The translations under genes and the position numbers were made by a program. From the NCBI GenBank assembly GCA_004010535.1, contig RQYE01000010.1, positions 1 through 64,000 on the forward strand: a stretch of 64,000 bases of DNA. The letters run 5' to 3'. The stretch is from Coriobacteriales bacterium OH1046. GTDB lineage: Bacteria > Actinomycetota > Coriobacteriia > Coriobacteriales > Atopobiaceae. Positions within the stretch are counted from its first letter, which is position 1, and every line of letters starts with the position of its first letter. The notes below the pieces were generated by a model that was given only the letters and a program-made list of their open reading frames with translations, was not told the origin of the DNA and searched no databases. Positions 50,981-56,567 of this stretch are shown here, piece after piece.

Positions 50981-52801
50981 ATGGCCAGACTCCATGTGAT
51001 GGAGCGCAGCGAGGCCCAGGCCGTCATGGACGGCTTGCACGAGGCGTTGGGAAAGCGCCTCGCGGTGAGCTCGCTCGCTCCCTGCCCCGTCGAGTTCACG
51101 GCGGCGTATGTGCGCATGTGCGCCACGCAGAGCTGCGGTAAATGCACGCCCTGCCGCGTGGGCCTGCGCGCGCTCGCCGATCTGTTCGACGACGTTCTCG
51201 AGAACCGGGCGGACGGGAAGACGCTCGACCTGATCGAGCGCACCGCCCGCGCGATCTACCTCTCAGCCGATTGCGCCATCGGCTACGAGGCCGGCGAGAT
51301 GGCGCTCACGGCCATCCGCGGCTTCCGCGACGATTTCGCGCACCATATCGAGCACCATGCATGCGGATTCACGCAGAGCCAGCTCGTCCCCTGCGTCTCG
51401 GGCTGCCCTGCGGGCGTCGATATCCCGGGCTACATCGCCCTCGTCGAGGCCGGTCGCAATACCGATGCGGTCCGCCTCATCCGCAAGGACAACCCGTTGC
51501 CCGTGGTCTGCGGCCTCGTGTGCGAGCATCCCTGCGAGATCAACTGCCGCCGGGGCATGGTGGACGACCCCATGAACATCCGCGGTATCAAGCGCTATGC
51601 TTGCGACCATATGGAGGGCGACTACACCCCCAACCACGCGGCGCCCACCGGCAAGCGCGTCGCGGTCATCGGCGGCGGGCCCGCCGGCCTCTCCGCAGCA
51701 TACTATCTGGCGCTCATGGGCCATAGCCCGAAGATCTTCGAAGCACGCCGCAAGCTGGGCGGCATGCTGCGTTACGGCATCCCCGCCTACCGCCTGCCGC
51801 GCGAGGAGCTCGACGGCGAGATCCAGTGGCTGCTCGATCAGGGCATCGAGGTCGAGCTCGATGCCAAGATCGACGACATCGGGGCGCTCCGTACGGACTT
51901 CGATGCGGTCTACCTGGCGATCGGCGCGCATGCCGACAACAAGCTCGGACTCGAGGGCGAAGATGCCGAGGGCATCGTCTCGGCAGTCCAGATGCTGCGC
52001 GCCATCGGCGACGACGAGACCCCCGACTTCTCCGGCGAGCGCATCTGCGTGGTCGGCGGCGGCAACGTCGCCATGGACTGCGCGCGCTCCGCCCTGCGCT
52101 GCGGTGCCGAGAAGGTCACCATCGTCTACCGCCGCCGCGTTGCCGACATGACGGCCCAAGACGAGGAGATCGTCGGTGCCAAGGAAGAGGGATGCGAGCT
52201 TCTGGAGCTCCATGCCCCCGTGCGCGTGGCCGTCGAGGATGGCCGCGTTGCGGGCCTCGTGGTCCAGCCGCAGATCATCGGCGGCCTCAAGTGGGGCCGT
52301 CCCGCTCCCCGCAAAGCCGATACCGATGAGATCACCATCCCGTGCGAGCGCATGATCGTGGCCATCGGCCAGGCCATCGAGTCGGAGCCCTTCGCCAAGC
52401 AGGGCATCGCCACGAACCGCAGCAAGATCGTCACCGATTCCGATGGCGCCGTCGCGGGTCTCGACGGGGTCTTCTCCGGTGGCGACTGCCAAAGCGGTCC
52501 TTCCACCGTCATCCGCGCAGTCAATGCGGGCAAGGTGGCTGCCGCCAACATCGACCATTACCTTGGCTTCAACCATCGCATCGAGCTCGATGTCGAGATC
52601 CCGCAAGTCCAGTTCAAGGGCAAGATCAGCTGCGCCAGAAGCGAGATGCCCTTCCGCGAGGCCCACGAGCGGGTGGGGGATTTCGACGAGATCGAGATCG
52701 GCTACACGCACGAGGAGGCCATGCAGGAGGCATCGAGGTGTCTGCGCTGCGACCACTTCGGCTTCGGTGCGTTCCGCGGAGGGAGGATCGAGCAATGGTA
52801 A
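50981..52801 (+). CDS. NuoF-C-terminal/GltD-like FAD and Fe-S oxidoreductase
   Basis: 606 residues from ATG 50981 (GAGGAGAGGATA before it). The first 130 residues resemble the Fe-S end of NuoF/HydB (TQSCGKCTPCRVG with Cys52, 55, 58, and a later SADCAIG). The rest is like the small subunit of glutamate synthase: an Fe-S region (CVSGCPAGVDIPGYI, GLVCEHPCE), FAD motif VIGGGPAGLSAAYYLA and NAD(P)H motif CVVGGGNVAMDCARSA. With the hydrogenase gene overlapping its stop by 7 bases, it most likely passes electrons between NAD(P)H and the hydrogenase. An electron-bifurcating role is possible but unproven. Confidence 0.85.
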   Translation: MARLHVMERSEAQAVMDGLHEALGKRLAVSSLAPCPVEFTAAYVRMCATQSCGKCTPCRVGLRALADLFDDVLENRADGKTLDLIERTARAIYLSADCAIGYEAGEMALTAIRGFRDDFAHHIEHHACGFTQSQLVPCVSGCPAGVDIPGYIALVEAGRNTDAVRLIRKDNPLPVVCGLVCEHPCEINCRRGMVDDPMNIRGIKRYACDHMEGDYTPNHAAPTGKRVAVIGGGPAGLSAAYYLALMGHSPKIFEARRKLGGMLRYGIPAYRLPREELDGEIQWLLDQGIEVELDAKIDDIGALRTDFDAVYLAIGAHADNKLGLEGEDAEGIVSAVQMLRAIGDDETPDFSGERICVVGGGNVAMDCARSALRCGAEKVTIVYRRRVADMTAQDEEIVGAKEEGCELLELHAPVRVAVEDGRVAGLVVQPQIIGGLKWGRPAPRKADTDEITIPCERMIVAIGQAIESEPFAKQGIATNRSKIVTDSDGAVAGLDGVFSGGDCQSGPSTVIRAVNAGKVAAANIDHYLGFNHRIELDVEIPQVQFKGKISCARSEMPFREAHERVGDFDEIEIGYTHEEAMQEASRCLRCDHFGFGAFRGGRIEQW

Positions 52802-54555
52802 ACGTCACCATCGACGGGCGCAGCGTGAGCGTGCCCGAGCATACCACCATCCTCGATGCGGCCGTGCAGGCCGGCATCGGCATCCCCACGCTCTGCTTCC
52901 TCAAAGATCTCAACGAGATCGGCTCCTGCCGCGTGTGCGTGGTGGAGATCGAGGGCATCGACCAACTGGTCGCCGCCTGCAACAACTATGTGCTCGAGGG
53001 CATGGTCGTGCGCACCAACAGCCCGAAAGTGCGCATGGCGCGCAAGGCCAATGTCGAGCTGCTGCTCTCGCAGCACGACTCCGAATGCACGAGCTGTGTG
53101 CGCAGCGGCAACTGCACCCTGCAGACCGTTGCCAACGACCTCGGCATCACCGTGATGCCCTACGCCAAGCACCTGCCCGGGCAGCCCTGGGACCAAGAGT
53201 TCCCGCTGATCCGCAACAACGACAAGTGCATCAACTGCCTGCGCTGCATCCAAGTCTGCGACAAGGTCCAGGCCACGGGCATCTGGACACTCACCAACCG
53301 TGCAAGCCACACGAGCGTGGGCGTTCGCGGGGGCGCCGCCATCGCGGCCACCGACTGCTCGCTGTGCGGTCAGTGCATCACGCACTGCCCGGTGGGGGCG
53401 CTGCGCGAGCGCGATGATACCGATCGCGTCTTCGATGCGCTGGCCGATTCCAAGAAGACGGTCATCGTCCAAGTCGCGCCCGCCGTGCGCACCGCATGGG
53501 GCGAGGGCGTGGGCCTCACCCACGAGGAGGCGAGCGTCGGCAGGCTGGTCGCTTGTCTCAAGGAGCTGGGTTTCGACTATGTCTTCGATACCGATTTCTC
53601 CGCCGACCTCACCATCATGGAGGAGGGCTCCGAGCTCCTCGATCGCATCGAGCATCCCGAGCACGGTCCCCTGCCCATGTTCACGAGCTGCTGCCCCGGT
53701 TGGGTGCGCTTCATCAAGAGCCACTATCCGGAGCTCACCGCCCATCTCTCCACGGCCAAGAGCCCGCACCAGATGTTCGGCGCCACGCTCAAGAGCTACT
53801 GGGCCGAGAAGATCGGCGTCGATCCGCACGACGTCTTCGTCGTCTCCATCATGCCCTGCCTCGCCAAGAAGGCCGAGATCGCCGAGCCCAACCAGAACGA
53901 CGCCTGCGGGGATCCCGACGTGGACGTCTCGCTCACCGTGCGCGAGCTCGACCGCATGATCCGCGCCGACCATATCGATGCCCGCTCGCTCGCCGATGCC
54001 GACTTCGACGATCCGCTGGGTATCGCCACCGGTGCCGGCCACATCTTCGGTGCGACCGGCGGCGTCATGGATGCGGCCCTGCGTTCCGCATACTTCCTCC
54101 TCACCGGCGAGAACCCCGATCCCGATGCATTCACGGCGGTTCGCGGCCTCGAGGGCTGGAAGGAAGCCACCTTCGATATGGGCGGCACGCCCGTGCGCGT
54201 TGCCGTGGCGAGCGGTCTTGCCAACACCAAGCGGCTGCTCGACGCCCTCAAGGCCGGCGAGGTCGCCTACGACTTCATCGAGATCATGGCCTGCCCGGGC
54301 GGGTGCGCGGGCGGCGGCGGCCAGCCCATCCACGACGGCTTCGAGTTGGCCGACATGCGCGGCAACATCCTCTGGACCATGGACAAGGACATGAAGCTGC
54401 GCTTCTCCCACGAGAACCCCTCGATCAAGCTCGTGTACAGCGAGTACTTCGGCGCACCGCTCTCGCATAAGGCGCACCACCTGCTCCACACCGATCACTT
54501 CGGGTGGGAGATGCCCTTGGCGCCCGGTGTGGAGGCGCCGCAGACTGCACAATAG
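52795..54555 (+). CDS. hydA: [FeFe] hydrogenase catalytic subunit, NuoG-like N-terminus
   Basis: 586 residues. N-terminal [2Fe-2S] domain with Cys34, 45, 48, 62, the His94/Cys98/101/107 cluster site, then two [4Fe-4S] sets (Cys145/148/151/155 and 188/191/194/198). The H-cluster domain has all three signatures: TSCCPGW (Cys299), MPCLAKKAE (Cys355) and MACPGGCAGGGGQP (Cys500, Cys504). It interconverts protons and H2 in the cytoplasm. ATG 52795 has GGGAGG before it; a longer frame upstream is an overlap artefact. The maturases HydE, F and G are not in this window. Confidence 0.95.
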   Translation: MVNVTIDGRSVSVPEHTTILDAAVQAGIGIPTLCFLKDLNEIGSCRVCVVEIEGIDQLVAACNNYVLEGMVVRTNSPKVRMARKANVELLLSQHDSECTSCVRSGNCTLQTVANDLGITVMPYAKHLPGQPWDQEFPLIRNNDKCINCLRCIQVCDKVQATGIWTLTNRASHTSVGVRGGAAIAATDCSLCGQCITHCPVGALRERDDTDRVFDALADSKKTVIVQVAPAVRTAWGEGVGLTHEEASVGRLVACLKELGFDYVFDTDFSADLTIMEEGSELLDRIEHPEHGPLPMFTSCCPGWVRFIKSHYPELTAHLSTAKSPHQMFGATLKSYWAEKIGVDPHDVFVVSIMPCLAKKAEIAEPNQNDACGDPDVDVSLTVRELDRMIRADHIDARSLADADFDDPLGIATGAGHIFGATGGVMDAALRSAYFLLTGENPDPDAFTAVRGLEGWKEATFDMGGTPVRVAVASGLANTKRLLDALKAGEVAYDFIEIMACPGGCAGGGGQPIHDGFELADMRGNILWTMDKDMKLRFSHENPSIKLVYSEYFGAPLSHKAHHLLHTDHFGWEMPLAPGVEAPQTAQ

Positions 54556-54660: not shown

Positions 54661-54752
54661 GTGACAAGGGGGCAGTGACAAGGGGACAGGTCGTTTGTCA
54701 CGCGCGCAGGCGTGACAAACGACCTGTCCCCTTGTCACTGCCCCCTTGTCAC
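54661..54752. repeat. 43-bp perfect hairpin with 6-base loop
   Basis: Arms 54661-54703 and 54710-54752 are exact reverse complements. Each arm contains two copies of GTGACAAGGGG-type sequence and the block GGGACAGGTCGTTTGTCAC. It lies in the 480-base gap between hydA and cysK. It has the look of a repetitive extragenic palindrome. Confidence 0.9.
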
Positions 54753-54799: not shown

Positions 54800-54828
54800 T
54801 TGACAGGCCCATAGAGCAGCCGTATATT
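54800..54828 (+). promoter_or_regulatory. Strong sigma-70-type promoter of cysK-cysE
   Basis: TTGACA, a perfect -35, then 17 bases, then TATATT. The leader peptide start is 40 bases after the -10. It is the best promoter in the window. Confidence 0.8.
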
Positions 54829-54867
54829 ACCTAGTGTTTAACTAGGATTTATGAGAGGAGCGGAGCA

Positions 54868-54933
54868 GTGCTGAAGCAGATCGCATGCGCGTGTTGGTGC
54901 ATCTGTCCCCAGGCTGCCCGTCTGTGCGCATAG
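54868..54933 (+). CDS. Cysteine-rich leader peptide of cysK-cysE
   Basis: 21 codons from GTG 54868, with AGAGGAG 7 bases before. The peptide reads M-LKQIACACWCICPQAARLC-A and has cysteines at 7, 9, 11, 13 and 20, four of them within seven residues. Cysteine is normally the rarest or nearly rarest residue, so this density directly before cysteine biosynthesis genes points to a leader that measures charged tRNA-Cys. Its last codons overlap the 5' half of the antiterminator stem. It is too short to be found by normal gene callers. Confidence 0.75.
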   Translation: MLKQIACACWCICPQAARLCA

Positions 54934-54987
54934 CGCACGCTTTCACAGAGCATAGAGTGCGGGCAGCCTTATAGGGGCTGCTTTTTT
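54912..54987 (+). promoter_or_regulatory. Transcription attenuator with mutually exclusive hairpins
   Basis: AGGCTGCCCG (54911-54920), inside the leader frame, pairs over 10 bp with CGGGCAGCCT (54960-54969). The second half of that sequence, GCAGCC (54963-54968), can instead pair with GGCTGC (54976-54981), which is followed by six Ts: a terminator. A small hairpin GTGCGC-ATA-GCGCAC (54924-54938) spans the leader stop. A ribosome stalled on the early Cys codons would leave the antiterminator free. A ribosome reaching the stop would cover it and let the terminator form. Confidence 0.75.
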
Positions 54988-55035
54988 CATTCCCCTGTCC
55001 TGTACCCGCCCCATCTCTTCAAGGAGCCGACTCCT

Positions 55036-55950
55036 ATGTCATATGCAACGACCACCAGCGGTCTTATCGGGAATACCCCGCTCATCGATCTCTCGGCGCT
55101 CGCTTCGTGCGGAGGTGCCCGCATCCTCGGCAAGTACGAGGCGGCCAACCCCGGTGGCTCGGTCAAGGACCGCATCGCGCTCGCCATCATAGGTGACGCC
55201 GAGCGCACGGGCCGTCTTGCTCCGGGCGGCACCATCATCGAGCCCACGAGCGGGAACACCGGCGTTGGCCTTGCCATGATCGCTGCCGAGCGCGGTTACC
55301 GCATGATCCTCGTCATGCCCGATACCATGTCGATCGAGCGCCGCAAACTCGCAGCCGCATACGGAGCCGAGATCGTGCTCACGCCCGGTTCCGAAGGCAT
55401 GAGGGGTGCTGTCACCCGCGCCGATGCCCTTGCGGACGAGATGCCGGGCGCCATCATCGCGGGACAGTTCACGAATCCCGCCAATCCGCGAGCCCACTAC
55501 GCGACCACCGGTCCCGAGATCTGGTCAGCCACCGACGGTACGGTGGATGCGCTTGTCGCCGGCGTGGGTACGGGCGGAACCATCTCGGGTGCGGGTCGCT
55601 TTCTCAAGGAGCAGAACGCCGAGGCCATCATCGTCGCCGTGGAGCCTGCCGAGTCTCCCGTCCTCTCGGGCGGCGCTCCTGGCGCGCATCGCATCCAGGG
55701 CATCGGCGCGGGATTCATCCCGGCAACCTATGATGCGGGCGTGGTCGATGAGATCATGGCCGTGGCCTCCGATGATGCCCTTGCAGCCAAACGGCGCCTC
55801 GCGCGCGAGATCGGGCTGCTCGTGGGCATTTCCGCAGGAGCTGCCGTTGCGGCGGCGGTGCAGCTTGCGGAGGGCGGGGCTTATGAGGAGCGCACCATCG
55901 TCGCGATGCTCCCCGATACGGGCGAGCGCTATCTGTCCTTGGAGGTGTAG
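55036..55950 (+). CDS. cysK: Cysteine synthase A (O-acetylserine sulfhydrylase)
   Basis: 304 residues. Makes cysteine from O-acetylserine and sulfide using PLP. The PLP lysine is Lys44 in ANPGGSVKDRIAL, the substrate loop is EPTSGNTGVGLA, and the phosphate-binding loop is GVGTGGTISGAGRF. Length and motifs are those of CysK, not the longer cystathionine beta-synthase. CAAGGAGCC precedes the ATG. It is co-transcribed with cysE 2 bases downstream and controlled by the cysteine attenuator upstream. Confidence 0.95.
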   Translation: MSYATTTSGLIGNTPLIDLSALASCGGARILGKYEAANPGGSVKDRIALAIIGDAERTGRLAPGGTIIEPTSGNTGVGLAMIAAERGYRMILVMPDTMSIERRKLAAAYGAEIVLTPGSEGMRGAVTRADALADEMPGAIIAGQFTNPANPRAHYATTGPEIWSATDGTVDALVAGVGTGGTISGAGRFLKEQNAEAIIVAVEPAESPVLSGGAPGAHRIQGIGAGFIPATYDAGVVDEIMAVASDDALAAKRRLAREIGLLVGISAGAAVAAAVQLAEGGAYEERTIVAMLPDTGERYLSLEV

Positions 55951-55952
55951 CT

Positions 55953-56567
55953 ATGGCATACGGGAAGCAAAGACGGGATCATCCGGGCGTCTTCTCCCTC
56001 ATGCTCGAGGATGCACGCGCGGCCCTCGAGCGCGACCCGGCAGCCGGGAGCATGGCCGATATCATCCTCTTCTCCACAGGTACCCGTATCGTGCAGGCCC
56101 ACCGGAGGCATCACTGGCTCTATACCCATGGGTTCCGCAGGCTCGCCTGCTGGCTCGCCAAGCGCATGCGCGTGCGGCTCGGTGCGGATATCCATCCTGC
56201 AGCGACCATCGGGCGCCGCCTCACCATCGATCACGGTATCGGCATCGTCATCGGCAGCACCGCCATCATCGGCGACGACTGCCTCATCTACCAAGGTGTC
56301 ACCCTCGGCATGGACGGCAAGAACATGCATGGCAAGCGCCACCCCACGCTGGGAGATGATGTCATGGTGGGTGCGAATGCCGTTGTCCTGGGGGCCATCA
56401 CGGTGGGCAGCCGCGCGCGCATCGGCGCGGGAGCGGTGGTCGTGGGAGATGTGCCGCAGAGCGTGACCGTAGCGGGCGTGCCGGCGAAGATCGTCCGCGA
56501 TCACCGGCTTCATTTCGTGGAGGATGCCGATGCGTCCGAAGACGTGCGTTGGAGCTGCGCACTCTGA
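55953..56567 (+). CDS. cysE: Serine O-acetyltransferase
   Basis: 204 residues. Acetylates serine from acetyl-CoA to supply CysK, with which it usually forms the cysteine synthase complex. The C-terminal half is a left-handed beta-helix of hexapeptide repeats (IHPAATIGRRLTIDHGIGIV, then VIGSTAIIGDDCLIYQGVTL), with the catalytic His in IDHGIG. The N-terminal helical part is short, as in Gram-positive SATs. The end lacks the usual isoleucine, finishing in a Trp-Ser-Cys-Ala-Leu tail. Confidence 0.93.
   Translation: MAYGKQRRDHPGVFSLMLEDARAALERDPAAGSMADIILFSTGTRIVQAHRRHHWLYTHGFRRLACWLAKRMRVRLGADIHPAATIGRRLTIDHGIGIVIGSTAIIGDDCLIYQGVTLGMDGKNMHGKRHPTLGDDVMVGANAVVLGAITVGSRARIGAGAVVVGDVPQSVTVAGVPAKIVRDHRLHFVEDADASEDVRWSCAL

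Follow-up and report, generated by a model that had tools for sequence, protein, structure and literature searches.

The window analysed here, 64,000 nucleotides of contig RQYE01000010.1 of Coriobacteriales bacterium OH1046, an uncultured gut-type actinobacterium, carries on its forward strand the adjacent cysK and cysE genes, whose products catalyse the two final steps of the pathway to cysteine (Table 1). The original prediction had assigned these genes as cysK-cysE and profile models agreed, with cysK scoring well over the cutoff; cysE, which starts 2 nt past the cysK stop codon, was identified by its best model and by the hexapeptide fold. The gene preceding the leader region described below (positions 52342-54555) matches the iron-only hydrogenase domains Fe_hyd_lg_C and Fe_hyd_SSU together with Fe-S modules. 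Just upstream of the cysK promoter, at 54661-54752, there is a perfect 43-bp inverted repeat with a 6-nt loop (GTGACAAGGGGGCAGTGACAAGGGGACAGG...), built from 14-nt direct repeats, that looks like a REP-type element. Similar palindromes (GGGGACAG) are found upstream of cysK in the L040 and L067 loci.

The promoter in front of cysK has a spacer of 17 nt and 11 of 12 hexamer matches in the promoter scan. It is followed by a short leader frame with five cysteine codons, four of them inside seven residues (CACWCIC). The GTG start of this frame lies approximately 40 nt past the -10 hexamer and the frame is accompanied by a Shine-Dalgarno sequence and a terminator, unlike a leaderless AUG at the 5' end of a transcript. 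Arms 1 and 2 constitute a perfect 10-bp inverted repeat, and no further exact copy of its word occurs anywhere in the 64 kb. The terminator hairpin spans 54961-54983 and its U6 tract (54982-54987) is separated from cysK by 48 nt. Sequence reading and the promoter/terminator scan placed the -35 and -10 hexamers, the ribosome site and the 21-codon frame with five cysteines exactly where the original prediction had put them. The inverted-repeat and hairpin scans likewise recovered its 10-bp antiterminator with the left arm in the frame and the competing terminator with six Ts. The description of the attenuator as complete was correct for all the parts named, but it had overlooked the candidate Rrf2-type operator at the expected start site. 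Rfam families, including T-box, gave no match at gathering score within the window.

Table 1. Features of the cysK leader region and the downstream operon (positions in the window)
Feature	Position	Strand	Remarks
-35 hexamer TTGACA	54800..54805	+	sequence reading, promoter/terminator scan; 5/6 invariant across three congeners
-10 hexamer TATATT	54823..54828	+	sequence reading, promoter/terminator scan; 5/6 invariant
Candidate CymR/IscR-type Rrf2 operator: dyad CCTAGTGTTTAACTAGGATTTA covering the expected start	54830..54851	+	binding protein predicted
Shine-Dalgarno AGGAG of the leader frame	54856..54860	+	7 nt 5' of GTG at 54868
Leader frame VLKQIACACWCICPQAARLCA	54868..54933	+	21 codons, GTG start, TAG stop 54931-54933
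Cys-codon cluster C-A-C-W-C-I-C, predicted stall site	54886..54906	+	Cys1-3 lie 12-24 nt upstream of arm 1
Arm 1 AGGCTGCCCG, antiterminator left arm, within the leader frame	54911..54920	+	10/10 invariant
Small hairpin GTGCGC-ATA-GCGCAC at the leader stop, lying within the antiterminator	54924..54938	+	
Arm 2 CGGGCAGCCT, antiterminator right arm and terminator left arm	54960..54969	+	10/10 invariant
Intrinsic terminator GGGCAGCC-TTATA-GGGGCTGC + U6	54961..54987	+	7/7 stem pairs kept in congeners
cysK Shine-Dalgarno AAGGAG	55021..55026	+	sequence reading
cysK, cysteine synthase A	55036..55950	+	TIGR01139, 407.5 bits vs cutoff 350.95
cysE, serine O-acetyltransferase	55953..56567	+	NF041874 over cutoff; TIGR01172 203.7 vs cutoff 210.65, just under

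This set of attenuator parts is improbable by chance. Among the 363 Shine-Dalgarno-preceded starts opening short frames on both strands of the window, only one led to at least four cysteines in seven residues, and this same single frame also has a terminator downstream. Forty random control windows, matched to the window in trinucleotide make-up, contained a mean of 0.125 Cys-dense frames per window, none of them with a terminator. The terminator (z=-4.2), the antiterminator (z=-4.7) and the whole-leader fold (z=-3.4) were all more stable than shuffled sequences. Since 2.2 % of dinucleotide-shuffled arm regions (22 of 1000) switched as cleanly with an equally stable stop-state fold, folding alone would not settle the case.

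The response of the leader to ribosome position was modelled by masking the A-site codon and a further 9, 12 or 15 nt, and by folding the RNA downstream, a procedure that is an equilibrium calculation only. With the A-site on Cys1, Cys2 or Cys3 and a 12-nt mask, the antiterminator formed with a probability of 0.82 and the terminator with 0.00, whereas with the A-site on the stop codon the values were 0 and 0.93, respectively. The stop state and the Cys1-2 stalls were unchanged by footprints from 9 to 15 nt, while the Cys3 stall softened to a mixed state at 15 nt. The leaders of two congeners (L003 and L004) gave the same outcome. A stall at Cys4 produced an intermediate, mixed fold and Cys5 lies beyond arm 1, so only Cys1-3 are predicted to be able to sense. 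In the RNA free of ribosomes the antiterminator again prevailed (0.82), hence poor initiation on the leader would give read-through.

The leader is very probably a ribosome-mediated transcription attenuator through which the expression of cysK-cysE would follow the supply of Cys-tRNA. The operon makes the very amino acid that the leader would sense. The parts are established at sequence level, as are their conservation and, in silico, the fold into two states. In the predicted course of events, RNA polymerase would leave the promoter and a ribosome would begin the 21-codon leader. With ample Cys-tRNA(Cys) it would reach the stop codon and cover arm 1, arm 2 would then pair with arm 3, and transcription would end at the U6 tract. 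When Cys-tRNA is short, stalling at the first three cysteine codons would keep arm 1 exposed for pairing with arm 2; the antiterminator would form in place of the terminator and cysK-cysE would be transcribed. We infer the transcription start, leader translation, stalling and termination.

The original prediction had called the arrangement classical and trp/his-like. The leader, antiterminator and terminator do follow one another in that order, but a trp-type protector hairpin was absent from the predicted folds and the four arms of the E. coli trp attenuator are not all present. Without a protector hairpin, the switch has three arms rather than four and an untranslated leader folds as read-through.

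The genus of the window, g1, was sampled with five genomes, three of which carry the window-type cysK, including the two congeners. The leader was found in 3/3 of these, the congener peptides being VLKQITCACCCICPQAARLCA and VLKKTTCACCICTQAARLCA; one differs by the loss of a whole codon, in frame, and the number of cysteines stays at 5-6. In the non-coding arms 2 and 3, 17 of 17 columns were invariant, the figure for the non-coding sequence around them being 40 of 79 (p=4.5e-5), and both pairings, antiterminator and terminator, are kept in all three species. The proposal that cysteine codons and stem pairing would be kept in relatives was thus upheld in both sister genomes, and Cys leaders were also present in further genera of the family. 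As arms 1-3 are invariant across only three sequences, they hold no covariation signal for or against the pairings, and covarying stems could not be shown within the genus. A covariance model of the leader (R1) found one copy per genome, only upstream of cysK, in the three g1 genomes, and a search of 140 family genomes yielded nothing convincing beyond these copies. Two weak R1 matches (E 0.02-0.03) were discarded because they had no Cys frame. At L002, the second cysK paralogue, and in its congeners no Cys-dense leader was found.

The dyad CCTAGTGTTTAACTAGGATTTA occurs just once in the genome when up to 1 mismatch is allowed. Among 90 cysK loci of the family, 46 have a matching dyad, irrespective of whether a Cys leader is present. 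The genome encodes one Rrf2-family protein, next to sufS- and sufU-like genes. This protein scores higher with IscR than with CymR models, in both cases below the cutoff, and the IscR and CymR motifs have been reported as similar (PMC3828012). The position of the dyad over the start point, the sole Rrf2 gene and the similarity of the two motifs make dual control of cysK by an attenuator and a candidate Rrf2-type operator likely. Repressor binding, as deduced here, would add a second, cruder layer, which probably decides if there is any firing of the promoter. Bacillus CymR, which controls cysteine genes, offers a precedent for Rrf2-type control of cysK (PMC3828012), although the protein encoded here is nearer to the IscR models, below both cutoffs, and the likeness concerns the second layer, not the attenuator.

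In the family, which is very probably Atopobiaceae, the regions upstream of cysK were read at 90 loci. Cys-rich short frames preceded cysK in g1 (3/3), g35 (14/15) and g32 (1/1), with less clear cases in g19 and g21, and their RNA architectures differ between genera. In other families of the order, 0 of 40 cysK loci had a Cys-dense short frame.

Two types were distinguished in g35. In type A, represented by five genomes (L044, L045, L049, L050 and L053), the frame ends in an GGCTGTCG arm whose complement is GGCAGCC; GGGCTGCC comes next, and after it a separate U-tailed hairpin. These leaders form a five-segment pairing chain for which equilibrium folding gave no clean switch, the terminator being formed in nearly all states; the 3:4 pairing shows one compensatory change, and 81 of 500 shuffles do as well. 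Type B comprises nine g35 genomes and the g32 one (loci L043, L046, L047, L048, L051, L052, L054, L055, L057 and L058) and lies approximately 200 nt upstream of cysK. Its ATG is located about 7 nt past a -10-like TAGGAT, so the frame looks leaderless, and there is an Rrf2-like dyad in the spacer. The pairing partner of GCCCGGGTC in the frame is GGCTCGGGC, located downstream as part of a strictly conserved CTCGGGCGTAA; this pairing was present in 100 % of cells, in U-G, C-G and U-A forms, a result that shuffles match. Type B leaders have no U-run. A further Cys-leader type was observed in g19/g21 (L061, L063, L069, L072, L080 and L093), with a U-tailed hairpin resembling GGGACGC...GCGTCCC and no Rrf2-like dyad; masked folding gave no convincing switching.

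Two related genomes labelled Clostridiales, L021 (positions 1327-1480) and L178, carry MKAMSVCNICCSICICRCCCRRMP-type leaders with 8-9 cysteines before cysK. Their arms follow the same three-arm order, with GTCGTCGCAT in the frame, ATGCGACGGC after the frame and a GCCGTC + U7 terminator. In masked folding the antiterminator was favoured at Cys 7 or 8, 14 and 16, the state was mixed at Cys 10 and 11, and the terminator formed at the stop codon. The switch shows the same three-arm logic as in the window in an unrelated sequence. The three-arm Cys leader was absent from the other 27 readable cysK loci of the family of these two genomes.

Cysteine leader peptides have been described ahead of cys operons in Mycobacterium and P. 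acnes, and ahead of cbs in B. longum, all without terminators (Seliverstov et al. 2005, PMC1262725). They belong to the same phylum and resemble the window leader in being short frames with runs of Cys codons. They lack a conserved terminator hairpin, and the involvement of Rho has been proposed, whereas the window has an intrinsic terminator and a matching antiterminator, both kept. The polycysteine system of M. smegmatis (Canestrari 2020) is presented as translation attenuation in a paper citing it (PMC13236596), and a review (PMC9031893) describes leaderless Cys-codon frames of this species that regulate downstream translation by attenuation. As portrayed in these two sources, the M. smegmatis frames share Cys-codon stalling as the sensor with the window leader, but they are leaderless and act on translation, whereas the window frame has a Shine-Dalgarno sequence and a transcription terminator. 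The type B leaders of g35, with an ATG close behind the -10 and no U-run, look closer to the mycobacterial kind.

Such mechanisms raise the possibility that a stall in the window leader acts on cysK translation or on Rho, the hairpin and the Ts being incidental. The terminator-less leaders upstream of actinobacterial cys genes (PMC1262725), the translation attenuation cited for M. smegmatis (PMC13236596) and the related type B leaders without a U-run all speak for it. We nevertheless consider this explanation improbable, as every g1 genome carrying the leader retains arms 2 and 3 together with the T-run, and the cysK Shine-Dalgarno sequence lies 34 nt beyond the T-run, outside both structures, in a region that is itself poorly conserved (6/17 invariant). 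The transcription attenuator has points of its own against it, among them the GTG start of the leader and the restriction of predicted sensing to Cys1-3.

A stable noncoding fold could also act constitutively to terminate a small RNA or a transcript arriving from upstream, the Cys frame remaining untranslated. The hairpin, however, follows a strong promoter and precedes cysK, and the scan gave no further promoter-like match from the T-run to cysK; the Cys frame persists in the congeners, where its length changes in frame only, and unrelated Cys-rich leaders occupy the same place in other genera. It is very unlikely that the hairpin has this role, and the chances are equally slim that an Rrf2 repressor of the CymR/IscR type is the main control of cysK and the leader a decaying relic. 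The leader parts are conserved above their flanks and all three species still switch in silico, which does not fit a relic, even though the near-perfect dyad overlaps the start region and occurs in many family members without a Cys leader, and the one Rrf2 gene of the genome adjoins the sufS/sufU-like genes. Moreover, repressor and attenuator controls can coexist.

With the trp/his-type attenuators of Proteobacteria, and of trp in Corynebacterium and Streptomyces (PMC1262725), the window leader shares a frame rich in codons for the end product, an antiterminator arm in or near the frame, an overlapping Rho-independent terminator and a biosynthetic operon downstream. It differs from them in that cysteine would be sensed, in having three arms and no protector hairpin, and in that the untranslated RNA would correspond to read-through. 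The ilvB attenuator of M. tuberculosis (PMC13236596) is likewise an actinobacterial uORF at which the ribosome position sets the choice between terminator and antiterminator, but it has codons for branched-chain amino acids and serves another operon. A cysteine attenuator with an intrinsic terminator was not found in the openly licensed literature, which is weak evidence of absence; the statement in the original prediction that no described example was known from Coriobacteriia agrees with this, within the same limit. The leader thus appears, with good support from its sequence, to use the known peptide-leader mechanism in a form for which no cysteine example was found.

Since 2005 the lack of terminators has made the cysteine leader peptides of Actinobacteria a puzzle. 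It is an evenly balanced proposition that cysteine attenuators based on a terminator represent a kind of cysteine regulation with no description so far and with more than one origin: as the protector-less three-arm form of g1, the longer cascade of g35 type A, the leaderless terminator-free g35 type B and the independent three-arm form of a Clostridiales lineage, often with an Rrf2-type operator. Within one family the Cys-codon sensor would then have been kept and the RNA output stage exchanged. The window leader would add a terminator-based cysteine attenuator to Coriobacteriia, for which no description was found. A compact, complete switch, in a family with switch and no-switch forms before the same gene, may serve as a testable system for the coupling of sensor and output.
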